In this document: one piece after another, positions 2-16,405 of the stretch
How the letters are laid out: each line of letters opens with the position of its first letter
How positions within the stretch are numbered: position 1 is the first letter of the stretch
Virus record (IMG/VR): IMGVR_UViG_3300033148_002478
Location: 1-21,377 of that record
Length of the DNA stretch: 21,377 nucleotides
Reading direction: 5' to 3' (one strand)
Source: a virus
Translations under genes and position numbers: made by a program
The notes under the pieces: generated by a model
Seen by the model: the letters and a program-made list of their open reading frames with translations, nothing else
Told to the model about the DNA's origin: nothing
Database searches by the model: none

Positions 2-103
2 TATAACGGAGATGAACGCCGCCTTTTGTGTATAAAAGGCGATCGAATAGCTCAGGCTGTGGTTAATCTAATACCTAAGATCGATCTAAAAGAAATTCTA
101 TGA
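2..103 (+). CDS. 3' end of an upstream gene, product unknown
   Basis: An open frame enters from the left edge and ends at a TGA at 101-103. The visible 33 residues end in IPKIDLKEIL. The stop overlaps the ATG of the terminase ATPase gene as ATGA, so the two are probably translationally coupled. Too little is left to recognise a family. A small terminase subunit is a common neighbour here, but nothing in the residues shows it. Confidence 0.55.
   Translation, partial: YNGDERRLLCIKGDRIAQAVVNLIPKIDLKEIL
20..41 (+). repeat. Perfect 8-bp inverted repeat (hairpin) inside the upstream gene
   Basis: CGCCTTTT at 20-27 pairs exactly with AAAAGGCG at 34-41 around a 6-base loop. It lies inside the reading frame of the partial upstream gene, about 60 bases before the terminase start. 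There is no T-run after it, so it is not a classical terminator. It may be chance, or an RNA structure affecting the following gene. Confidence 0.4.
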
Positions 104-1038
104 AAGATCTTTTTGCAGAATTACTGGAGACAGATTCCGAATTCCAAGACTTACTGGAATTAATCCAGTCGAAACCTTTAGACGAAAAAGACATGTACAT
201 AAATCTTCTGTACGATCTACATCACGATAGAGCTCAGGTGGATATGGATACTTTCCTCTTCGATAAGGATTTTATGGGGATCAAACCAAACCAAATACAT
301 GCGAAAATCCGAGAACTGTTATGGATAATCGATGATCCTGCAGTAAGAGAGGTTTTCATAGTTGCTGGAAAGGGTTCTGGTAAAAGTACTCTAGTGGGTC
401 TTGCTCAAGCAAAAGCTTTATATAACCTATTATGTTATGTAGATCCTGCTGCTTATTTCGGATTAATGCAGGGTACCTTTATTGTCTTGATTAACATGAG
501 TATTTCCGCACCTCAAGCCCTGAACGTTATCTTCAAGAGGTTTATTTCCTACATACAGCGGATTAAACAATTTCAAAAAGTATCTAAACGTCAATTCGTT
601 AAATATAAGGAGATTAAGGAGGGGGCAAAGGAAACTCTAAGGGAGTATAAAGGAGGTGATATTGACACTGAATTTTTTTCAGAAAGTGTAGGTACTCTAG
701 AATTCACTGATAAGAGTATCATGTGTCTATCTGGTCATTCCAAATTCAGCTCTTTTTTTGGCTATGATACTTTTTTTGGTTCTATTGATGAAATGAGCTG
801 GTTCAAGACTGGTAGTAAAAAACCTACAGGTGATCTAGATAACGACGACATCGCTGGTGAAATTTATCAGGGCCTAGTTTCGGCGGGTAAAACTCGTTTC
901 CCTCATCACTATACGGTAATAGGTATTTCCTCTCCTCGTTCAAAAAAAGATGATCTTTTATGGGAGAAAGTTCAGGCTATAAAGGAAAACGGAGAGGAGA
1001 TTCGTCTGGACTTAGATGCCCCTCAATTAATAATCTAA
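100..1038 (+). CDS. terL: Large terminase, N-terminal ATPase part (packaging motor)
   Basis: 312 residues that form the ATPase half of a tailed-phage large terminase, which uses ATP to pump DNA into the prohead through the portal. Visible motifs are Walker A GKGSGKST at 90-97, Walker B with the catalytic Glu in GSIDEMSW at 227-234 (D230, E231), and the coupling motif GISSPR at 275-280. The protein stops soon after motif III, before the nuclease domain that intact TerL proteins carry. The missing part is encoded 2.7 kb downstream, from 3771. The start overlaps the upstream stop (ATGA) and has only a weak Shine-Dalgarno, which suggests coupling. The last dozen residues (LDLDAPQLII) look like a tail peculiar to the split form. 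The family is certain; whether the half is functional alone is not known. Confidence 0.9.
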   Translation: MKDLFAELLETDSEFQDLLELIQSKPLDEKDMYINLLYDLHHDRAQVDMDTFLFDKDFMGIKPNQIHAKIRELLWIIDDPAVREVFIVAGKGSGKSTLVGLAQAKALYNLLCYVDPAAYFGLMQGTFIVLINMSISAPQALNVIFKRFISYIQRIKQFQKVSKRQFVKYKEIKEGAKETLREYKGGDIDTEFFSESVGTLEFTDKSIMCLSGHSKFSSFFGYDTFFGSIDEMSWFKTGSKKPTGDLDNDDIAGEIYQGLVSAGKTRFPHHYTVIGISSPRSKKDDLLWEKVQAIKENGEEIRLDLDAPQLII

Positions 1039-1039
1039 T

Positions 1040-1051
1040 TTATATAATTAT
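1040..1051 (+). promoter_or_regulatory. Putative phage late promoter, copy 1
   Basis: TTATATAATTAT lies directly after the terminase ATPase gene and 45 bases before the ATG at 1085. It is the first of five similar motifs, each at the head of a gene block (others at 5351, 9660, 12833 and 18178). No -35 hexamer is apparent. Calling it a promoter is inference from recurrence and position. Confidence 0.5.
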
Positions 1052-1084
1052 ACTGAACATTAACTTTTATTCAGGAGGTCTTTC

Positions 1085-1333
1085 ATGGAATTTCTAATAA
1101 GAATAGCCTGTAGATTTTATGCAAGATGGTCTAGGGTTTTCAACAAAATCGAGCGTAAATTATATATAGAAATACACCTCCAAAAACATGACCAAAGAAC
1201 TTATCCCACTGTGGCATGGTCCGCCTACCTAGAAAACAAGCACATAAAATGGAAGAAAGATAAATGGTGGATGGGTTGGGGTTCAAAGGTCTATGGTCCC
1301 TCAAATACGATAAACCTCCTTTTCATATCATAG
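1085..1333 (+). CDS. Unknown protein, N-terminal part of a frameshifted gene
   Basis: 82 residues with a good start: AGGAGG lies a few bases before the ATG. The protein is basic and aromatic (IERKLYIEIHLQ near residues 22-33, then WKKDKWWMGWG near 56-66). After about residue 66 the reading continues more convincingly in the -1 frame of the next entry, and the last ~16 residues here look like out-of-frame read-through. Loss of one G from the GGGG run at about 1278-1281 would explain this. The joined protein would be about 153 residues. No family recognised. Confidence 0.5.
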   Translation: MEFLIRIACRFYARWSRVFNKIERKLYIEIHLQKHDQRTYPTVAWSAYLENKHIKWKKDKWWMGWGSKVYGPSNTINLLFIS

Positions 1334-1545
1334 CGGTCTACATAGACCATAACGGTAGATATGTTACCATTTCAAATCAACATATCTTCTTCCATCGCAG
1401 CCTAGATAAAATGGTACGTCATTATGATAATAGATACAAGGATGGTAATCATGTCCGATACCTATGTGTGTTCGACCTGCTAAAAGATGATGTCTACTTT
1501 AACAAGATAATTGACTGTAAAAAAGAAGGGGTGTATCATGGTTGA
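1264..1545 (+). CDS. Unknown protein, C-terminal part of a frameshifted gene
   Basis: 93-residue frame that overlaps the end of the preceding fragment in the -1 frame. From about residue 7 onward (FKGLWSLKYDKPPFHIIAVY) it reads as the natural continuation of that fragment, with a strand-rich stretch followed by a charged helix. Its own ATG at 1264 has no convincing ribosome binding site, so it is unlikely to be an independent gene. The stop overlaps the start of the membrane protein at 1538. No family recognised. Confidence 0.45.
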   Translation: MVDGLGFKGLWSLKYDKPPFHIIAVYIDHNGRYVTISNQHIFFHRSLDKMVRHYDNRYKDGNHVRYLCVFDLLKDDVYFNKIIDCKKEGVYHG

Positions 1546-1834
1546 ATTACTTAATGTATTGCAAAAAATGGATGCGGGTGTTATTTTCATAGTGATTATG
1601 TCTAGCCGGATACTAAAGATCTCCGTGATTAAAAAAAGATTAAAAGCAAAATTTTTAGTCCCTCTTGTGCTTTCAGTTATAGTTGCTGTATTCCTACACT
1701 ACAGTGAAGGAATACAGCTGGTAATCAATCAATCTGTTAAGTATGCTGGTACAAGTATGGTAATATATGAGATATGGAAAAATTTTATAAAGCGTTTTAA
1801 AACAAAACAAACCGGAGGTATCAATGGGAAATAA
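1538..1834 (+). CDS. Small membrane protein, possible holin
   Basis: 98 residues starting at the ATG at 1538, preceded by GAAGGGGTG; a TTG start at 1511 is possible in frame but lacks a comparable site. Two hydrophobic segments are clear (about residues 13-31, AGVIFIVIMSSRI..., and about 43-60, FLVPLVLSVIVAVFLHYS), with a weaker third near 65-85. A basic tail (KNFIKRFKTKQ) follows. Size, multiple membrane segments and charged C-terminus fit a phage holin, which would let the endolysin reach the cell wall. No holin family signature was recognised, so this is inference. It overlaps the genes on both sides, showing tight coupling. Confidence 0.5.
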   Translation: MVELLNVLQKMDAGVIFIVIMSSRILKISVIKKRLKAKFLVPLVLSVIVAVFLHYSEGIQLVINQSVKYAGTSMVIYEIWKNFIKRFKTKQTGGINGK

Positions 1835-3734
1835 GGGAAAAACAGCCATCAAAGGTGGATTACTCTATAGACAGGCTGCTGACGTAACCTATAAGGGTTC
1901 AGAAGCATCTTTAAGTGTTGCTCTAAATCATTGTACGAAATGGCAAACTATTATGTCAAAAATGAATGAGTCTGCTAGAATACTAAATACTCTTTCAGAG
2001 CAAGCGATCGCTTCTGAGACTCAAGCAAAAGCTTTTGTAAGCCTAATGAGTATGACGGATAAGAGTAGTGATCTTTATAGTGCCGTACAAAATCTATTAC
2101 AGATGATACAGGCCTTCGGTCAGATGGCTAAATCCGAAGTGGCTGCCAAAGAGATTGTTATGAATGTATTTAAACATCGAAAAACTCTAGGGGGTGAAAA
2201 ACTTGCCGACCTTGACGAAATTCTAGCTCAATTAGAGGCAAAAAACGAGGCTCTAACACTCAAATTCAAGGTAAGTGAGGGTAAGCCCGGGGAGGCTGAA
2301 GTTCAGCTTCAGGTTCGAAAAAAGCAAAAAACAACTCCTTACCAGGCTAAGAGAACTCAGATGCTAAGCACTGCACTGGATTTCATAAAAGATGAGATAT
2401 CAGAAGCTGGGAGAAGCTACAAATCGGCTGTGAACGCTATTCTTCAGTTAACAGAATTCTTGGACATGGTAAACTCTTTCTCAAAAACAAAACCAAAGTC
2501 AGAAGAAAGAGACCTCCTTCAAGGGCAGATGGAAACTCACCCACTATGGGATAAGTTTCAAGAACAGGTTTCTTTCCCTGAACAGGCAGAATCTTTTGAG
2601 TATACCATGGACGTGAAATCATCCGATCACAAGGTCATGTCTGAATTCCTCAACTTCGTGACAAAAGCTGCTCTAAATATTGTAGCTGACGCAATTACAG
2701 GAGATATTAACGAGCCTGTGGCTTATATGGATAATTGGGTCATTGAACTTGGGGATGGTATCGTAGAGGGTTCAGACCTGCTTCTTGAAGCTGCAGAAGA
2801 AGAGGCTCCCGCAGAAGAGAAAAAACCTTTCATGGAGAAAGTGAAAGAGAAAGGAAAAGAATATTTAGGGAAAGCAAAAGAATTTGCAGAAGGTCTGGCT
2901 CCTGAGCCTATGCCTATAGCAGCGTCTAAAAGAGGAGGAATAAAAAGAATGGCAAATTATGATAACGAGAGAGCTTACATAGAGTATTTAGATGAAATTG
3001 GTACAAGTATACTTAGTGGCTACTCAGCTTCTCAAGTGATGAAGGAAGCGGATGAGCCTATGTACAGAGAGGGCTTAGCTAATTGGTTTGACATGGAAAT
3101 TAGAGATGGTAGAATTTCAGAAGAAGCTGATGACGCTGATGACGCTGACGACTATATAGATCAGTACGATGATTTCCTAGATGAAGTATATCCAGAGGGT
3201 TCTGAATGGGGTTTTATCTCCAGTCCGGGGCATACACTAAAAGAGGTAGACCCTGACGCGTTCAGGGTCGGTATGGGTGACTGGGAATCTGAAATGGGTG
3301 AGGATGTTTCAGAAATACTAGCGGATGTTAGAGGTTCCGTGGACGCCTATAACGAAAATGTAAATGATGAATCTTATATGAAACTTTTAACAGCGGATGA
3401 GAGGTATGATTGGCTTATAGTTGCCAATGACGATCTCGAGAGTGAGGTAAGTCAATATCTTGAAGCATTAGGAGCTCAAGATATTTATGGAGAACTGGAA
3501 TTAGATGGAGGTCCTACCGAATTTACAGAATTCTTCAACACCTATGTGGCTCCGAAATTAGAGAAAATAGGTCATGATATACAGGCAAAAAAGAAAAGTA
3601 AAGCCTGTGAACAACCAAAAGATAATCCTAAAGAGGTTAACATGGGCGACAAGGAGCCCCGAGACATAGAAAAAAGAGATTCAGATAAGGGTTCAGCTCT
3701 TAAAAAACCTAAAGTAATGAGAAGAAAAAAATAA
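1824..3734 (+). CDS. Large unknown protein, probable virion or core protein
   Basis: 636 residues, start supported by GGAGGT a few bases before the ATG. The N-terminal ~370 residues are largely helical, with a long charged stretch rich in E, K and Q; a Glu/Lys-rich linker near 325-360 leads to PIAASKRGG (364-372). The C-terminal part is strongly acidic, contains an ADDADDADD tract (435-443), and has two similar units at about 388-426 and 451-491. It ends in a Lys-rich tail. A strong internal ribosome binding site precedes Met376, so a separate 261-residue C-terminal product is possible. The gene sits between the two parts of the terminase. No homologous family recognised. A head core, scaffold or injected protein is plausible from size and composition only. 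Confidence 0.6.
   Translation: MGNKGKTAIKGGLLYRQAADVTYKGSEASLSVALNHCTKWQTIMSKMNESARILNTLSEQAIASETQAKAFVSLMSMTDKSSDLYSAVQNLLQMIQAFGQMAKSEVAAKEIVMNVFKHRKTLGGEKLADLDEILAQLEAKNEALTLKFKVSEGKPGEAEVQLQVRKKQKTTPYQAKRTQMLSTALDFIKDEISEAGRSYKSAVNAILQLTEFLDMVNSFSKTKPKSEERDLLQGQMETHPLWDKFQEQVSFPEQAESFEYTMDVKSSDHKVMSEFLNFVTKAALNIVADAITGDINEPVAYMDNWVIELGDGIVEGSDLLLEAAEEEAPAEEKKPFMEKVKEKGKEYLGKAKEFAEGLAPEPMPIAASKRGGIKRMANYDNERAYIEYLDEIGTSILSGYSASQVMKEADEPMYREGLANWFDMEIRDGRISEEADDADDADDYIDQYDDFLDEVYPEGSEWGFISSPGHTLKEVDPDAFRVGMGDWESEMGEDVSEILADVRGSVDAYNENVNDESYMKLLTADERYDWLIVANDDLESEVSQYLEALGAQDIYGELELDGGPTEFTEFFNTYVAPKLEKIGHDIQAKKKSKACEQPKDNPKEVNMGDKEPRDIEKRDSDKGSALKKPKVMRRKK
2933..2951 (+). promoter_or_regulatory. 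Internal ribosome binding site and start codon in the 636-residue gene
   Basis: A perfect AGGAGG at 2933-2938 is followed, 10 bases later, by an in-frame ATG at 2949 (Met376). The position falls exactly at the border between the helical N-terminal region and the acidic repeat region. Nested in-frame starts of this kind are known in phage head genes (for example lambda C/Nu3). Use of this start is inference. Confidence 0.45.
3126..3152 (+). repeat. Three tandem 9-base units encoding ADD-ADD-ADD
   Basis: GCTGATGAC occurs twice, followed by GCTGACGAC with one base changed. It encodes three Ala-Asp-Asp units between the two larger protein repeats of the 636-residue protein. A replication-slippage origin is likely. 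Confidence 0.7.
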
Positions 3735-3770
3735 AACACCGTCACTCTATCGAATTAATGAGGCTGATAA

Positions 3771-4028
3771 ATGCAAAACACCCCCGAAATAGCCATACGA
3801 GGACTTCCATTCAAGATCTACTTCAGAAGATTAAATCCAAACAGCCCTATACATAAAGCGGAATATCAAGTTGGCGTTCACGGAGCTACTTGGGAATTTC
3901 AAGACAGTGACCCTGAGATATTTGCACCTGATTTTGAAGAGAACCCAATAAAGGCCGCCAGAGATATAGGTGGTGATCCTCCAGAAACCTCTGGCAATGC
4001 CCTACCCAATCCAGAGATCATAGACTAA
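3771..4028 (+). CDS. terL: Large terminase, middle (linker) fragment
   Basis: 85 residues that correspond to the stretch of a large terminase between motif III and the nuclease domain. The recognisable section is HGATWEF (about 39-45), then an acidic segment, then PIKAARDIGGDPPE (about 59-72); such ATWE ... RD.G..PP patterns are typical of this region. The start is supported by GAGG eight bases before the ATG, the same style as other genes here, and an in-frame TAA sits immediately before the ATG. The fragment ends at TAA 4026-4028. Beyond it the same frame stays open to 5348 and encodes the nuclease domain, so the two ORFs are one broken or read-through gene. The ATPase half is at 100-1038. 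Confidence 0.75.
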   Translation: MQNTPEIAIRGLPFKIYFRRLNPNSPIHKAEYQVGVHGATWEFQDSDPEIFAPDFEENPIKAARDIGGDPPETSGNALPNPEIID

Positions 4029-4039
4029 AAAAAAAAAAA
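4026..4039 (+). other. In-frame TAA at the head of a 13-A run, interrupting the terminase
   Basis: The stop TAA (4026-4028) is the beginning of T followed by 13 A. After it, the same frame continues without another stop to 5348. A length error in the A-run alone cannot explain the stop, because the frames before and after it agree; a base substitution, real read-through, or a real mutation is needed. TAA ends most other genes in this window, so reassignment of TAA is unlikely. Confidence 0.7.
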
Positions 4040-4181
4040 CAGAGAGGATCCTGTAGACCGTAAGCTAAATAAGTTTGGCTGGGTTATTCCCCCTCTAAAA
4101 GAATGGTTTGTAGGTGACGATAGGTTTAGTTATTATCTTCACTTTGACCTTTCAAAATCAGGAGATCAGACGGGGGTCGGT

Positions 4182-5348
4182 ATGGTGCATTATGATTTTG
4201 AAAACTCAGAGTATTTTGCGGATTTAATAATGAACATCCCTGTATCTAAAGACTGGAACCTGAAATTCAGAACCGTCGTAAATATGATAGATATTCTGAT
4301 TGAAAGAGGTTTCCATATCGCAAGGGTTACATTCGATGGGTGGCAGTCTTTAAACATCATACAGCAGATGAATGAAAAAGGACTAGTCTCTGAAGTATAC
4401 TCCGTTGATAGGGGGACTGAAGCTTATGATACTTTAATTTCAACCATTCTCCAGAAACGCCTTAACTACTACAAGCAGGTCGTTTTCATTACGGAATTGA
4501 AAGAAATTCAACTGATAGGAAATCGTTATGATCATCCACCAAAGGGATCAAAAGATGTTTCAGATGGCGTTGCTGGAGCCCTATCTAATTGTGTGAAAAA
4601 CACAACTCATGCCGCATTTAAATTCGAAGACATTAAACATCTTTTTAGTTTGGATTATAATCTTAAAAACTTCTTCGAGGTAAGTGAGGAAGGGTTTAGA
4701 TGGATCAAACCTAAGATCAAATACGGTATACCTCATTCCGTCTACATAGATGGTATAGAAGACTCTTTAATTATTGTGCATGGGTTCCAAGATAAAGAGG
4801 ATTTCACTATAGACTATGTCCAGACTGTACCTGACTTTGACGATGCTAAAATAAAAGAACTGGCTTTTCTTGTAACAAACCTAGAAGCTAATTTTGTTTC
4901 CGTGGGGCTCAACACTTCTTTTCGAGTCGTAGATGCCTTGCGAAAAGCCAACATACGCACTGTCTCAGGGGACATGAATCGTTTAGATACTGTTCAAAAC
5001 AAGGGGATTAGAATACTAAGGTCCCAAGCAAGAGAGGCCGTAACTTCCTTCATTTCGCAGGTCAAACAGAAAAATATCCGTCTAGTGGATGAGCGTTTAG
5101 TATTTCAACAGATCTCAGAACTAAATGTCGCAAAATTCAATCAAAAACCTGTAGCAGTTGCCCTATCTATGTGGCTGCATTACATGATGCAGGACGCTAA
5201 AAATCGCATAGGAGAGGGTCCAAGGCCTATTGCTGCCGCAGGTCGAGGTGGTTTCCTAGGTTCCAGTGTTCTTAAACCTAATGCAGTTCAATCCGAACAG
5301 CCTAAAATATCTCAGAAAAAACGCCCAAGGCCTAAACTACGGCGTTAA
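4182..5348 (+). CDS. terL: Large terminase, C-terminal endonuclease part
   Basis: The nuclease domain of the large terminase, which cuts concatemeric DNA at the start and end of packaging. The only ATG after the upstream TAA is at 4182, but clear terminase sequence begins at about 4041 and includes the first catalytic Asp (codon 4146-4148, in HFDLSKSGDQTG). The other acidic residues are Asp in TFDGWQS (codon 4335-4337) and the Asp residues of KDVSDGVAGA (codons 4554 and 4563). Translation from 4182 alone would lose the first Asp. After the nuclease domain comes a further ~160-residue segment (about 4728-5200) that resembles a second, degenerate copy of the same fold, then a basic tail beginning PIAAAGRGG. 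Together with the fragments at 100-1038 and 3771-4028 it would make a TerL of roughly 836 residues. Confidence 0.85.
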   Translation: MVHYDFENSEYFADLIMNIPVSKDWNLKFRTVVNMIDILIERGFHIARVTFDGWQSLNIIQQMNEKGLVSEVYSVDRGTEAYDTLISTILQKRLNYYKQVVFITELKEIQLIGNRYDHPPKGSKDVSDGVAGALSNCVKNTTHAAFKFEDIKHLFSLDYNLKNFFEVSEEGFRWIKPKIKYGIPHSVYIDGIEDSLIIVHGFQDKEDFTIDYVQTVPDFDDAKIKELAFLVTNLEANFVSVGLNTSFRVVDALRKANIRTVSGDMNRLDTVQNKGIRILRSQAREAVTSFISQVKQKNIRLVDERLVFQQISELNVAKFNQKPVAVALSMWLHYMMQDAKNRIGEGPRPIAAAGRGGFLGSSVLKPNAVQSEQPKISQKKRPRPKLRR

Positions 5349-5350
5349 TG

Positions 5351-5362
5351 TTATATAATATG
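5351..5362 (+). promoter_or_regulatory. Putative phage late promoter, copy 2
   Basis: TTATATAATATG lies just after the terminase stop and 37 bases before the ATG at 5388. It differs from copy 4 (12833) only in the last base. Confidence 0.55.
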
Positions 5363-10699: not shown

Positions 10700-12334
10700 A
10701 TGTACACAAAAGGCTCAAAAAAATTGATAAATGGAAGCTCTTCTATAAAAAGGGCCGCAGGTAGAGCAGTGGGAGGTTTTGGGAGGAAGGGTTTTCAACT
10801 GTCTCAGGGTTCTCCTGAGTTGAGAGATCCTATGTTCAATCCTGAAACATTCTATATTGCCCAAGACTTACAAACAATGAATAGATGGATACGTTATTAT
10901 GACACATTCCATCCCATACTCCCAAACAGTCTTGATATACATGCCTTTTTCCCCATAAGTGATTTTTCCTTCAAAGGGGTAGACGATCCTTATATATTGG
11001 ATTTCTATGACTATATCAAAAACGATGTATTGAAATTATTGGATTGGGTTATCCTCGCTTCAAGAGAATATGAGGTGCTTGGAGAGTGTTTCACTTTCTT
11101 TGGGTGGGATACTTATAATGGGTACTTCAACACCGCAACAATCCTTAATCCAGATCTATTAGAAATCTATCCTTTCGATTTCAATGGGGGTAGAAAATAT
11201 GTAATCTCCATGGATATTCCAGAGAGTTTCGAAATTCTACATATGAAAAAAGACATGGATATGAGATACAGGCAATTATGGAATAATCTTGACCCTGTAA
11301 TACGTCGATGCATTGAATCAGGATTAAAAATCCCGCTAAGTCCAAATAATGTTTTTGGTATGCAGAGGTTGGCTTTTTCATATGACACTAGAGGGACTTC
11401 TCAAGTACTCCGTGTGCTCAAAGATCTTATGCATGAAGACAAACTTCGTGAGGCTCAAATGGCTGTAGCCGACGGACATATCACTCCTTACCAGATATGG
11501 AAGATAGGAAACACCGACAAGGGTTATATTCCTTCTGAGGAGGAATTGGATGATTGGAACGATCTGCTACAGCAAGCAGAGCATCAAAATCTATTTAGGA
11601 TAGTAACTCATGACGCTGTCAGTTACGAGACAAAAGGTATCCAGGATGGTCTACTTCCAATAACTCCTGAAATAGATAAGATAGAGGATAGAATTTTAAC
11701 TGCTCTCTATACCTCCCGAGCTATGACTACAGGAGAAGGTCCTACATATTCCAATGCTGTAATAGGTTTAAAAGTTTTAGAGGGTCGTTATCAGAACAAA
11801 CTTTATAGGATTTCTTCTATAATAAGATCTCTCTATAAAAAGATAGCTACAGCAAATGAATTCTATAAAATAACTCCGGCACAGTTAGCTCATCGGATAA
11901 GACCTAGCAAAAAAGACAGGGAACTAATGCTACCTACTGTACATTGGGATAACTACTTTAGTTTTGCAAAAGATCTTGAGAGAGCTAAATTCTATAAAGG
12001 ACTTGCCGAAACCCACAAGATGTCTTGGAAAAGGGTGTTTGATGTATTAGGCTTGGATTATGAAGAAGAAAAAAGGCTTCTCAAAGATGATATGGGTTCC
12101 GTGTTTCAGAATGAAATATTCGAAGCCAAGATACAACAGCTGGTACAGATGGTGGATTCAAACGCTCCTGAAGGTGCCGTAAGTCCTGTTGGGAAGGGTA
12201 TACCTACCAACCTAGCTTCGCCTGATGACGAAGAGGGAGGGGCTGGTATCCTAGAGGAGGCCGGTGCTGAAATTCCTGAAGGGGGTGCTGAACCACCTAT
12301 GCCTGACGTGGACAGGCAGTTGGCTGAAATATAA
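10700..12334 (+). CDS. Portal protein
   Basis: 544 residues, start with GAGG six bases before the ATG. The portal is a ring of twelve at one head vertex through which DNA enters, and it docks TerL. Evidence is the typical portal order: a basic N-terminal tail, a helical start with RWIRYYDTFHPILPNSLDIH (62-81), PISDFSFKGVDDPY (85-98), EYEVLGECFTFFGWD (123-137) and ILNPDLLEIYPF (148-159), then a long helical region. The C-terminal ~50 residues are Gly/Pro/Glu-rich and probably disordered. Length is normal for large-phage portals. The gene precedes the protease, scaffold-like and capsid genes, the usual order. The basic glycine tail (RAAGRAVGGFGRKGF, 18-32) is unusual. Confidence 0.82.
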   Translation: MYTKGSKKLINGSSSIKRAAGRAVGGFGRKGFQLSQGSPELRDPMFNPETFYIAQDLQTMNRWIRYYDTFHPILPNSLDIHAFFPISDFSFKGVDDPYILDFYDYIKNDVLKLLDWVILASREYEVLGECFTFFGWDTYNGYFNTATILNPDLLEIYPFDFNGGRKYVISMDIPESFEILHMKKDMDMRYRQLWNNLDPVIRRCIESGLKIPLSPNNVFGMQRLAFSYDTRGTSQVLRVLKDLMHEDKLREAQMAVADGHITPYQIWKIGNTDKGYIPSEEELDDWNDLLQQAEHQNLFRIVTHDAVSYETKGIQDGLLPITPEIDKIEDRILTALYTSRAMTTGEGPTYSNAVIGLKVLEGRYQNKLYRISSIIRSLYKKIATANEFYKITPAQLAHRIRPSKKDRELMLPTVHWDNYFSFAKDLERAKFYKGLAETHKMSWKRVFDVLGLDYEEEKRLLKDDMGSVFQNEIFEAKIQQLVQMVDSNAPEGAVSPVGKGIPTNLASPDDEEGGAGILEEAGAEIPEGGAEPPMPDVDRQLAEI

Positions 12335-12357
12335 AACATAATAAATGAGGTGTAGGT

Positions 12358-12525
12358 ATGGGATTTAAGATAACGAGTCGAGGTAAATTAACTGAGATGA
12401 CAACCGGTAAAAAGAAAGAAGTTACTGCAAAGAATGGAAAATCTACGAGTACTTGGGAAGATGAAAAAATAGATCTTACCTCCGTACAGGCAGAAAAGAA
12501 AGATAACGAGAAAGAGGGTAAATAA
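12358..12525 (+). CDS. Small Lys-rich protein, unknown
   Basis: 55 residues, ATG at 12358 with GAGGTG upstream and stop TAA at 12523-12525. It is rich in Lys, Thr and Glu with no hydrophobic core except a short ITSRG start, so it is probably disordered. The good ribosome binding site, the tight fit between portal and the next gene (one base gap) and the use of this frame support it as real. No family recognised. Confidence 0.55.
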   Translation: MGFKITSRGKLTEMTTGKKKEVTAKNGKSTSTWEDEKIDLTSVQAEKKDNEKEGK

Positions 12526-12526
12526 T

Positions 12527-12826
12527 ATGTCTGTATATGTAAACCAACCTATGTTTGACAAACATGCTGAGGATTCAATCCTTACTGGGATGGCATTCTG
12601 GGCTGGATTCATGCATGGGGTCTCCGGCAGTGCTACTGCAAATGATGAAAAAATAAAAAAAGCTCTACACAAAGTCTACACAGATGTATTTAATACCCAC
12701 GGTGAATTAAATAATACTGCACGAGTTAATATAAAAAGCTCTCTTGAACAAGAGGGGGTTGGTATAACTGAAGAGGGTGTAGAACATCTATGGAAGGGTT
12801 ATGTGGATTCGCTGGAGAAAAAATAG
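12527..12826 (+). CDS. Small helical protein, unknown
   Basis: 99 residues, start preceded by AAAGAGGG. A hydrophobic segment with aromatic residues (MAFWAGFMHGVSG, about 22-34) could be a short buried helix; the rest is charged and helical, ending EHLWKGYVDSLEKK. No family recognised. It closes the portal block before promoter motif copy 4. Confidence 0.6.
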   Translation: MSVYVNQPMFDKHAEDSILTGMAFWAGFMHGVSGSATANDEKIKKALHKVYTDVFNTHGELNNTARVNIKSSLEQEGVGITEEGVEHLWKGYVDSLEKK

Positions 12827-12832
12827 TTGTAC

Positions 12833-12844
12833 TTATATAATATC
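12833..12844 (+). promoter_or_regulatory. Putative phage late promoter, copy 4
   Basis: TTATATAATATC in the 47-base gap before the protease gene, 41 bases before the ATG at 12874. It would drive the block of protease, scaffold-like, decoration and capsid genes. Confidence 0.55.
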
Positions 12845-12873
12845 TAGGACAATAATAATGGAGAAGGTTTAGT

Positions 12874-13650
12874 ATGTTTTTTGTGGCGAGTAGAAACAAA
12901 AAAAACAGTCTGAAGGTTATCAGTAATTTTCATAGGTCTGCTGCTGGGGTAGAAATACCCCTTGATACGAAAAATTACTTTTATCTAAGGAATTGGGCCG
13001 TCTCCTCCTATGAGGATTGGGGCTTAAATCATAATGCTGACGGTTGGAGAGATAAAGTTCTTCAATCCGATTATAACTCCTTTGACGGTGCATGGGTGTG
13101 TCTAGATCATATTGCCCAGAAGTCCTCTGATTCTATAGGGTCCGTGTTGTCTCCTGTATATACTCCCGAGAAGTACGTAGAGACTGTGATGGCGGTTAGT
13201 CGGGAAAAGGCTGACAGGAAGCATCCTTTTCTTGAAAAAGATATACAAGAGGGGAGAATAACTGACACTAGTATGGGTTGTGTGGCTCAGTATAGTGTAT
13301 GTACAGTGTGTGGTAACAAAACAGCCAATGAGGATGATTACTGTGACCACTTAAGGCCTGACAAGCTGGGTGATAGCTTGAAAGGTTCATCTCTGCTTAT
13401 AGAGGGAAAGAAAATCATTGTAGGTGAGTTATATGAGAACGTTCAATTTGTAGAGGACTCCATTCTGACGGGAGAGGAGGGTGCCGATATAAACGCCAAG
13501 ATCTTTAATATAGCTGCTAAAAGAGCTGGTACTCGTAGAGCTGTAGGGGATGACCTATTTCACGCTATAAAGGCTGTAATAAAGGAACAGGGTAGATCTG
13601 ATTATTTAAATGGTTTGTTGAACAATATAGAGAAATTAGGAGGTATTTAA
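12874..13650 (+). CDS. Prohead maturation protease
   Basis: 258 residues. It resembles the head maturation proteases of large tailed phages, serine enzymes of the herpesvirus-assemblin/T4 gp21 type that cut scaffold and capsid proteins after assembly. Visible elements are a start like NHNADGWRDKVLQ (52-64), a His in VCLDHIAQ (His79) as the probable catalytic His, and DTSMGC (131-136) with Ser133 as the probable nucleophile. After it comes a Cys cluster, CTVCGN (143-148) and YCDH (156-159), a pattern I recall from other phage proteases and which could bind zinc. Start has GGAGAAGG upstream. The stop is immediately followed by the next ATG, showing coupling with the scaffold-like gene. Catalytic residues are assigned by eye. 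Confidence 0.82.
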   Translation: MFFVASRNKKNSLKVISNFHRSAAGVEIPLDTKNYFYLRNWAVSSYEDWGLNHNADGWRDKVLQSDYNSFDGAWVCLDHIAQKSSDSIGSVLSPVYTPEKYVETVMAVSREKADRKHPFLEKDIQEGRITDTSMGCVAQYSVCTVCGNKTANEDDYCDHLRPDKLGDSLKGSSLLIEGKKIIVGELYENVQFVEDSILTGEEGADINAKIFNIAAKRAGTRRAVGDDLFHAIKAVIKEQGRSDYLNGLLNNIEKLGGI

Positions 13651-14937
13651 ATGCCAAAAAAACTTAGAACAACTAGAACCTCTGCTATGCTTGGTAATAC
13701 TCGAACCGCGGGTAAAGGCACTCCAATCAAGAGAGATAGAAAGGTAGAGATTCGAAAGAAAATCGAGGCTAGACGACGTTCGGTGGTGGCCAGGAAAGTA
13801 GCGATGAAGACAGCTTTTGTAAAAAGAAAAGCTGCGTTTGATGGTATGAAAGCTCAAAAACTAAATGCTTTTGACCGTGCCATTATTTCTAATCCGAAGG
13901 CTGTTATTAATCAGGTCGAGGTAGATGCGTATTCCGTGAAAGCTAAAGGAGAGTCCTTGACTTTTTCTTTCGGTAGTAAGAGTTCAAAGGACTTCACTGT
14001 ATTAAAAAGAGTGAATGCCCAAGGGGAGGTTGATGAGAATGGTACACCTATAGTTGGAGGTGCCCCTGACCTTGATGAAGACTTGAGAGCTCCTGCTCCA
14101 ACAACCGGGGATATCCCTGCACCCGAGGCTGTCCCATCTATGGGCGCAGTTGAGGAGTTGACCGAGCCTATGTCTGATGCAGCTCCTGAAGACGCTGCAA
14201 AGGCTATAGTTACTGTGAACGATAAGCTCAGTGAGATCGAAAAACGAGAGGATGTTGACAAGATTCTTAAACAAGAGCTTAAGCAAGTTAAAGAAGCTTT
14301 AACAGGGGTGTCTGCTATTATCCGAAAGATAAAACCCGCATTAAGGGCTGCCGCGTCTAGAGGGAAGAAACCCACAACTATAGGTCGAGAAGAACTCAAA
14401 ACTATCGTCGATTTCTTAGGGAGTGCTGATAAACTCTACACGAGTGAGATGACTGGTTTTGAAACCAAGGCTAGTGTGTCTGATGTGAGTGGGTTTAGTA
14501 CTGTCGTAGCTGGTCTCAGGTCTTCTACTGATATGTCCCTTGAAAGAGCTCACGATGTTCTAGCCTCTTATCAAAAGAAAGAGGCTAGTGTGTCTGATGT
14601 GAGAGGTATTATTAAAGAAGTCAAAGCTTCTGTTGAGAAATGGCAACTTTTCAAGAAAACTGCAGGTATCTTTCAAGGTGAGGCTAAATACGCTGGGGCT
14701 TCCAAGTCACATCTAAAAAACATTCTTGCTTCCGTACAAGAGATGGTAAGCAATGAAGAGATAGGGTCAGATAGTATTGCTTCTCAGGCTATAGAATTCC
14801 TAAATCTAAACGAAAAGGAATTTAAAACTGTTAATGCTGCCTTAAGAAGGCAAGGGTCTAGCACAATGCCAAATTCAGTTCCTTCTGTGCAGAGTATTTC
14901 AAATTCGGATAATCTAGAAAGTATTTTTGACGAATAA
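13651..14937 (+). CDS. Probable scaffold or internal head core protein
   Basis: 428 residues, start one base after the protease stop with AGGAGG upstream. The first ~60 residues are very basic (KKIEARRRSVVARKVAMK near 30-47). A Pro/Ala/Glu linker (about 135-185) is followed by long charged helices, likely coiled coils (residues about 188-235, DKLSEIEKREDVDKILKQEL). The position between protease and decoration/capsid genes is where scaffold genes usually lie, and the helical, low-complexity composition fits. An ASVSDV repeat (274-279 and 312-317) suggests duplication. No scaffold family was recognised, so the role is inference; an abundant internal protein cleaved by the protease is an alternative. 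Confidence 0.5.
   Translation: MPKKLRTTRTSAMLGNTRTAGKGTPIKRDRKVEIRKKIEARRRSVVARKVAMKTAFVKRKAAFDGMKAQKLNAFDRAIISNPKAVINQVEVDAYSVKAKGESLTFSFGSKSSKDFTVLKRVNAQGEVDENGTPIVGGAPDLDEDLRAPAPTTGDIPAPEAVPSMGAVEELTEPMSDAAPEDAAKAIVTVNDKLSEIEKREDVDKILKQELKQVKEALTGVSAIIRKIKPALRAAASRGKKPTTIGREELKTIVDFLGSADKLYTSEMTGFETKASVSDVSGFSTVVAGLRSSTDMSLERAHDVLASYQKKEASVSDVRGIIKEVKASVEKWQLFKKTAGIFQGEAKYAGASKSHLKNILASVQEMVSNEEIGSDSIASQAIEFLNLNEKEFKTVNAALRRQGSSTMPNSVPSVQSISNSDNLESIFDE
14468..14603 (+). repeat. 22-base exact direct repeat in the scaffold-like gene
   Basis: AGGCTAGTGTGTCTGATGTG plus two further bases (AG) occurs at 14468-14489 and 14582-14603, 114 bases (38 codons) apart and in frame. Both encode ASVSDV. 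Identity at all 22 bases, including third codon positions, suggests a recent duplication or gene conversion. Confidence 0.75.
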
Positions 14938-14970
14938 TATAGTTGATTAACCTAATTCAAGGAGAAAAAA

Positions 14971-15468
14971 ATGAGTGAATTCAATTCAACAGGGTGTTCC
15001 GTTCTATTTCAGGGTGGTATTGCCGATGGTGAGAGACAGGCTTCTGCGGCTCTCATTGCTGCAGGGTTTTCAAGTGGTACTCCACTTGTCTGGTCTGCCA
15101 ACGGCTGGGTTATTGCTGATAACTCGGCCGGAATTTTTATCAATGTTGTAGGTGTAGGTCTTGACGACATTAACAACCAGAGTCCAATGGTTGAGGGTAC
15201 TCAGCAATCCGGACAGCGTCCATGCTTACCTGTATGGATAGGGACCAACATGTTCCTAATGGAAGGTAGTAAGGTAAACAATATTCTTACATACCCTTTC
15301 CTCCAGACACCTACTGGAGGTGCTTGGACTGAGGGTGATAGCGTTTTCATTAATGCTGCTGGTAAATGGGATGATACATCTACAGGTGGTTCATCCTTTG
15401 GTGAAGTTGTCGAGGTCGTAGGTCCTGCCGCAACTGCTACAGGACTAAGAGTTATTATTAGACAGTAA
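14971..15468 (+). CDS. Probable capsid decoration or stabilising protein
   Basis: 165 residues, start with AAGGAG upstream. The protein is Gly-, Ala- and Thr-rich with alternating strands and no charged helices (for example GTPLVWSANGWVIADNSAG, 36-54), typical of a beta-sandwich. Codon use resembles the neighbouring capsid gene, as expected for an abundant protein. Placement just before the major capsid gene is where phages often encode head decoration proteins (as lambda gpD). No family was recognised, so this is inference from context and composition. Confidence 0.45.
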   Translation: MSEFNSTGCSVLFQGGIADGERQASAALIAAGFSSGTPLVWSANGWVIADNSAGIFINVVGVGLDDINNQSPMVEGTQQSGQRPCLPVWIGTNMFLMEGSKVNNILTYPFLQTPTGGAWTEGDSVFINAAGKWDDTSTGGSSFGEVVEVVGPAATATGLRVIIRQ

Positions 15469-15505
15469 TGTAGAAAGCAAATAACAGTTAAGGAGAAACA
15501 AAACA

Positions 15506-16405
15506 ATGAGTGTACAAGAAAGACAGGCCAAAGATGGTAAAAAGCTTCTAAGAGCTGAAGCGGCTCTTGAGAGAGCTCTGCGTTCAAAAGATGGCATCTC
15601 CCGAGTAGCGGCAGCAATGTCTAACCCGGTAAAAAGAATGCTTGATTACAAAGCGATTTTTCGTCAACTCGTGGTAGTGGAAACAAATTATCCACAAGGT
15701 CACCCGTTGACATATGACAAGGATCTTGAAGCATATCCAGCAATCAAAATTGGGCCAACTGCTACATCAAGATTCGTTGATGCTATTCCAGAAAGAATGA
15801 CCCTTGATGAATTCGAGATCGTATCAAGAGTTAAGGTACCTTACAAAGAACTATACACAAGAAAGTACAAAGTTCTTAATAGGGCCAAAGAAAGATTGGC
15901 TGAAGGTGTTGGTATCAGAGAAGATATTCTCGGGTTCTCCCTTCTTGAATCCGCTGCTAATTTTGGCGGTACATATGGTAATACACCTATCAATGAAGCT
16001 ACTGCTCTTTCAAAAGGATCTCTTGCTCGTGCTTTTGCACAGATCAAGAACAGAAGACTTCAACCGAAATCTATTTTGGTTAATCCTATCGGTACATCAG
16101 GTATCCAGAGATGGGGATGGACTGAAGTGGATCAGGATGGTATCAAAGAAATCCGTCAATCGGGTTATTTAGGTAATCTTTGGGGAGCTTCTTTCTTCGA
16201 ATCAGATCTAACTGCGACTAACAAGGCTTATGTTTTGGCTGATCCAGAATTTCTCGGTTGGATGCCTATCAGAAAAGACACTGAAATTACAGGTGCTGAT
16301 GATCCTGACAATATCAGACTTGGTTTCGTTGCTTATGAGCTTCTAGGGCTCGCAATCACTAATGTATCTGCTGTTGCCAGTGTAACTTACGATGACACCA
16401 AATAA
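15506..16405 (+). CDS. Major capsid protein (HK97-fold type)
   Basis: 299 residues, start with AAGGAG upstream. The head shell subunit. Evidence is the pattern of a HK97-like capsid protein of large phages: a helical N-terminal arm (1-45), then a stretch like QGHPLTYDKDLEAYPAIKIG, a long E-loop region, RVKVPYKELYTRKYKVLNRA (109-128) and a following helix with the ED (REDILGFSLLE), then a P-domain-like helix with a partner strand set and C-terminal strands. The Pro/Gly-poor, strand-helix alternation and position after protease, scaffold and decoration genes agree. It has no obvious long propeptide, so if the protease cuts it, the N-terminal arm is the likely target. Confidence 0.8.
   Translation: MSVQERQAKDGKKLLRAEAALERALRSKDGISRVAAAMSNPVKRMLDYKAIFRQLVVVETNYPQGHPLTYDKDLEAYPAIKIGPTATSRFVDAIPERMTLDEFEIVSRVKVPYKELYTRKYKVLNRAKERLAEGVGIREDILGFSLLESAANFGGTYGNTPINEATALSKGSLARAFAQIKNRRLQPKSILVNPIGTSGIQRWGWTEVDQDGIKEIRQSGYLGNLWGASFFESDLTATNKAYVLADPEFLGWMPIRKDTEITGADDPDNIRLGFVAYELLGLAITNVSAVASVTYDDTK

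Follow-up and report, generated by a model that had tools for sequence, protein, structure and literature searches.

The large terminase (TerL), the hallmark motor of tailed phages and herpesviruses, is encoded by two separate open reading frames (ORFs) about 2.7 kb apart in a viral lineage known from two genomes, both fragments of environmental assemblies. One is the 21,377-base virus record analysed here in full (the window) and the other is G001 (IMGVR_UViG_3300001533_003144). The split is real, and in neither virus do both domains lie on one polypeptide. The case is one of homology to TerL with an altered architecture, not of a standard TerL. Our preferred reading is that these are probably conserved genes-in-pieces, whose chains would rejoin non-covalently. 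The window carries TerL-A, three other genes and then TerL-C, laid out as follows.

Positions 100-1038, + strand: TerL-A, 312 aa, with ATPase subdomain I, one helix and a short low-confidence tail.
Positions 1040-1048, + strand: promoter-like TTATATAAT motif, directly after the TerL-A stop and 53 nt before the next start.
Positions 1085-1545, + strand: first block gene, a remnant in two frames, versus a single 188-aa ORF in G001.
Positions 1538-1834, + strand: second block gene, 98 aa, probably membrane-anchored, 38-40% identical to an 88-aa protein of G001.
Positions 1824-3734, + strand: third block gene, 636 aa, its N-terminal part ~42% identical to a 467-aa protein of G001.
Positions 3760-3763, + strand: GAGG ribosome-binding site of TerL-C; the upstream frame ends at an in-frame TAA (3768-3770), and the ATG is at 3771.
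Positions 3771-4028, + strand: first segment of TerL-C, up to TAA 4026-4028, with the ATWE motif and the predicted lid (ATPase subdomain II).
Positions 4026-4039, + strand: in-frame TAA that opens a 13-A run, absent from G001.
Positions 4029-5348, + strand: TerL-C continued in the same frame, with the hinge, the RNase H-fold nuclease (~4125-4595) and a lineage-specific C-terminal extension of ~220 aa.
Positions 5351-5359, + strand: another copy of TTATATAAT, immediately past the TerL-C stop.

Much of this layout had been proposed in an earlier note on this DNA. Its ATPase half at 100-1038 with Walker A, Walker B and motif III was recovered as an ORF with those motifs, its count of at least three unrelated genes between the halves agrees with the three found, and its promoter-like motif at the start of the inserted block is the TTATATAAT at 1040. 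The ribosome-binding site ascribed to the second part and the in-frame stop just before its ATG are likewise present, as the GAGG and the TAA listed above. The note erred in treating 3771-5348 as uninterrupted, having overlooked the TAA at 4026-4028. It was partly right in dividing the protein into ATPase and linker/nuclease halves, as the nuclease does lie ~2.7 kb downstream, but the break falls inside the ATPase domain, before the lid.

TerL-A has the features of a P-loop ATPase (Walker A, Walker B-Glu and motif III), with the motifs GKGSGKS, IDE and SSPR, respectively, conserved in both viruses at 45% identity between the two proteins. Its AF2 model has a pLDDT of 82, and a Foldseek search with that model ranked the ATPase domain of T4 gp17 first; HK97 and P74-26 were also high in the list. 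TerL-C, 48-52% identical between the viruses, retains the nuclease motifs HFD, FDG and DVSD and with them the acidic residues of the RNase H fold. Its first 265 residues are mostly well modelled (AF2), and Foldseek matched it to the TerL nucleases of G20c, P74-26, P22 and SPP1 and to gp17. The predicted order of strands and helices in the TerL-C extension (window 4713-5195; L009:8901-9386) resembles an RNase H fold. A second RNase H-like domain there was considered and set aside as a weak lead, with model confidence of ~50 and no support from profile comparison.

The position of the break was placed by fold order and alignment. TerL-A closes with the strand of motif III, a single helix and a tail modelled at low confidence, and TerL-C starts with an ATWE/STWV segment that in intact relatives comes directly after a loop of very variable length. 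In T4 gp17, motif III sits at the junction of subdomains I and II (PMC9958956, PMC3012670). Our sequence/profile alignment to gp17 was weak and of low probability, with motif III in a plausible register. Fold order together with alignment suggests that the ATWE segment belongs to subdomain II. The break thus falls between motif III and the lid, within the ATPase domain, and leaves lid, hinge and nuclease together. Given the place of motif III at the subdomain junction, such a break would detach the engine, with the transmission remaining joined to hinge and nuclease.

G001, a 120-kb record, was retrieved by a scan with the major head protein, which is 74-77% identical between the viruses. Its ATPase half (31367-32236) and nuclease half (34910-36046) are again separate, with the same three block genes in the same order between them (proteins of 188, 88 and 467 aa). 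The two genomes are collinear over 21 kb, most window genes being matched in G001 by an equivalent at the corresponding place. The G001 TerL-C is uninterrupted, an ORF of 503 aa; a TGA stands directly before its ATG, where the window has the TAA at 3768-3770. Between the halves of the two viruses, third codon positions vary most, an excess indicating that selection has kept both TerL parts at the protein level. The tails adjoining the break are not conserved in length or sequence between the viruses, and the model shows them as disordered. Scans of viral and genome databases for other members of the lineage yielded only G001 and an 8-kb fragment without TerL. The portal genes also differ: that of G001 (L004:4009-6648) appears to carry an intein of ~335 aa in frame (CVSADTEV...VTGN/T), with a match to LAGLIDADG_3, unlike the window portal, which has no intein.

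The TTATATAAT motif recurs at the equivalent place after TerL-A in G001 (G001:32260). Altogether it occurs four times in the window (1040, 5351, 12833 and 18178) and nine times in G001, always on the coding strand (13 of 13) and in 12 of these 13 cases 42-58 nt upstream of a ribosome-binding site and start. This spacing and strand bias make it a probable phage promoter element. Within the block that the first copy precedes, the second and third genes have counterparts in G001 and the first is damaged in the window, being shortened, frameshifted and devoid of a middle segment relative to G001. The intact 188-aa protein of G001 (L008:2285-2851) had no Pfam match; it shows a GDCDD...HH pattern reminiscent of a cysteine peptidase or transglutaminase, in the middle segment missing from the window copy. 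Domain searches of the block genes, including Pfam, detected no homing endonuclease domain of the kind that marks the break in classic genes-in-pieces cases.

Intact relatives supply the comparison on which the term genes-in-pieces rests. Profiles of each TerL part were searched against 80 IMG/VR relative loci and named phages (~85 relatives in all; one of the 80 loci lacks the 5' part of TerL). Wherever both parts are present, the ATPase and nuclease profiles fall within one ORF, the window and G001 being the exceptions; the comparison with related TerLs suggested in the earlier note thus finds the halves joined in the nearest relatives. Separate trees of the two parts (28 taxa) group the window with G001 (support 100) and place the pair as sister to the same 14 taxa, including Circinus, LukeCage, Trina, Jenst and phiYS40, with UFBoot values of 98 for the A part and 90 for the C part. 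The next branch after that sister clade is L036 in both (95 and 93). The congruence of the trees points to one ancestral TerL gene that was split, and on the same ground we rejected independent acquisition of the two halves. Together with the contiguous gene of the relatives, the trees indicate that the split is derived and occurred once. Among the single-ORF TerLs, that of Gordonia phage GordDuk1 (L017:2013-5081) reaches 1022 aa, far exceeding the length of its relatives, and its extra length is probably an intein or large insertion.

The structural genes tell of a different ancestry. They resemble those of Bacillus phage G (portal 32%, head protein 37%), whose own single-chain TerL has no detectable similarity to that of the window; a search with the window TerL profile, run without a positive control, matched 0 of 36 phage G-like contigs. 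Window positions 10700-16405 hold the phage G-like portal and head genes, versus a TerL from the Stanwilliamsviridae/phiYS40 side. These similarities indicate that the lineage has a mosaic head-packaging module.

The in-frame stop in the window TerL-C requires attention of its own. Translation from 3771 runs for 85 codons to TAA 4026-4028; the frame reopens at 4029, with no ATG, GTG or TTG before 4182, a point beyond the first catalytic Asp. Because of this stop, the window TerL-C as assembled could not yield a nuclease chain. The TAA begins a run of 13 A, the longest A/T homopolymer of the window (the next longest has 9 bases). Across the 51 codons that follow it, window and G001 are 75% identical with changes mostly at third positions, which implies that the stop either arose very recently or reflects an error of sequencing or assembly at the run. 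Reassignment of TAA as a sense codon was rejected, since TAA ends 21 of the 29 predicted window genes, and slippage on the run as a way past the stop was rejected because the TAA begins before the run and the downstream frame is unchanged. A dead TerL-C in the window, with the TAA as a real nonsense mutation of a genome that is defective or in decay and a working two-gene TerL in G001, is a minority possibility that we take seriously: the unreassigned TAA and the frameshifted neighbouring block gene fit it, and the conservation beyond the stop argues against any but the most recent loss. The note's preference for a two-piece motor that is expressed, rather than a gene that is simply broken, fits the comparative evidence, in that the arrangement and the catalytic motifs are kept at ~45-50% identity; it was reached without the stop in view. 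The same split with the same block genes in a diverged virus argues against simple gene death.

For the arrangement in both viruses, the main rival is a complete TerL of a different type, encoded outside the sequenced fragments and packaging the DNA, with the halves described here as leftovers or in another role. In its favour, neither record is complete, the structural module resembles that of phage G whereas the TerL is of another type that phage G-like contigs did not match, and the window has both its stop and its damaged block gene. Yet all catalytic motifs are kept in both halves at 45-52% identity, hence under selection, and the halves adjoin the portal and head module. No second TerL was found in the 120 kb of G001 by our own profiles, phage G gp1, PF03237, PF04466, PF03354 or PF17289, and we consider this explanation unlikely. 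Less likely still is that the 2.7-kb block is an undescribed or highly diverged self-splicing intron whose removal gives a mature mRNA for one TerL chain. TerL genes are known intron targets (PMC11878797), and the exons of the herpesvirus terminase flank an intron with two to five genes (PMC6466031). However, the block, at ~2.7 kb and with three conserved genes but no homing endonuclease, contrasts with a mean of 802 bases for Bastillevirinae introns (PMC11878797), the coding tails that flank the break are unconserved between the two viruses, TerL-C starts at an ATG of its own that a stop codon immediately precedes, and a promoter-like TTATATAAT follows the TerL-A stop. The earlier note had seen no intron core, and an Rfam covariance search of the window and G001 agrees, with no group I or group II intron at gathering score or even at E<=1. 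A split intein was rejected because the tails are too short (at most ~30 aa past motif III and the helix in TerL-A, and ~15-40 aa before ATWE/STWV in TerL-C), and there was no Hint or intein match in Pfam, nor an intein domain in the block. An assembly artefact or chimera, which the earlier note had named as a way for its reading to fail, has a negligible probability. The environmental assembly does have visible homopolymer and frameshift problems, but the diverged G001 shows the same order across 21 kb, which rules an artefact out as the source of the arrangement.

Returning to our preferred reading of a conserved TerL in pieces, we consider it likely that the lineage's ancestor underwent a single split of a one-gene TerL, at the variable-length loop inside the ATPase domain, and that two separately started proteins are made from it. 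TerL-A would act as the engine that binds nucleotide, formed by subdomain I and its three motifs, and TerL-C would combine the lid or transmission (subdomain II), the hinge, the nuclease/translocation domain and an extra C-terminal domain, and would be expressed from a transcription unit beginning at the TTATATAAT after TerL-A. The two chains may dock through the natural interface of subdomains I and II and form the usual motor ring on the portal. If both are expressed, reassemble and package DNA, the result would be a natural two-subunit packaging ATPase, with the engine and the transmission plus nuclease as separate, separately regulated proteins; we lean slightly towards this stronger proposal. 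Counting against a two-chain motor are the weak ribosome-binding site of TerL-C in G001 and the outcome of an artificial cut of T4 gp17 at its linker, which kept the ATPase and nuclease activities and abolished translocation (PMC3012670). That cut likewise gives a two-piece TerL, but between the ATPase and nuclease domains; the natural break lies earlier, before the lid.

Essential phage enzymes in pieces are well documented, as in the NrdA of Aeromonas phage Aeh1 (split by mobE), Aeromonas phage gene 43A/43B and the T4 topoisomerase (mobA), with activity from separate polypeptides demonstrated for NrdA and 43A/43B (PMC2988022). TerL here resembles them as an essential enzyme in separate polypeptides that would have to reassemble, but those enzymes are interrupted by a homing endonuclease or by a segment that is not translated, and TerL by 2.7 kb with three conserved genes. 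Herpesvirus UL15/UL89 is likewise a two-part terminase gene with other genes between (PMC6466031), yet its mRNA is spliced into one chain, whereas we found no splicing signal here. Introns and inteins are known from the TerL genes of Bastillevirinae and Campylobacter phage IBB_35 (PMC11878797, PMC3322345); there too the coding region is interrupted, but by introns, inteins and homing endonucleases, none of which was detected here. The nearest named relatives of both halves, the TerLs of Stanwilliamsviridae, Thermus phiYS40 and the Trina type (Circinus, LukeCage), share the ATPase and RNase H-fold nuclease but are all one ORF and lack the C-terminal extension of ~220 aa. A survey of jumbo phages describes TerL as a universal protein whose ATPase domain is N-terminal and whose nuclease domain is C-terminal (PMC7824862). 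We found no report of TerL made as two chains in the literature searched, largely papers outside subscription journals. What appears new here is therefore TerL as two chains, while genes-in-pieces phage enzymes, TerL introns and inteins and the spliced herpesvirus terminase were already known.

TerL serves as a marker gene, and full-length TerL profiles would miss or miscount lineages such as this one. The two-piece encoding suggests that a packaging motor can be assembled from two pieces, and a conserved natural split away from the T4 linker shows which connection evolution can break. A two-chain TerL would offer a ready system for separating ATP hydrolysis, lid motion and translocation. If the two-subunit motor is real, the covalent link between ATPase core and lid would be dispensable for DNA translocation, and the chains could be produced in unequal amounts or swapped during the packaging cycle.
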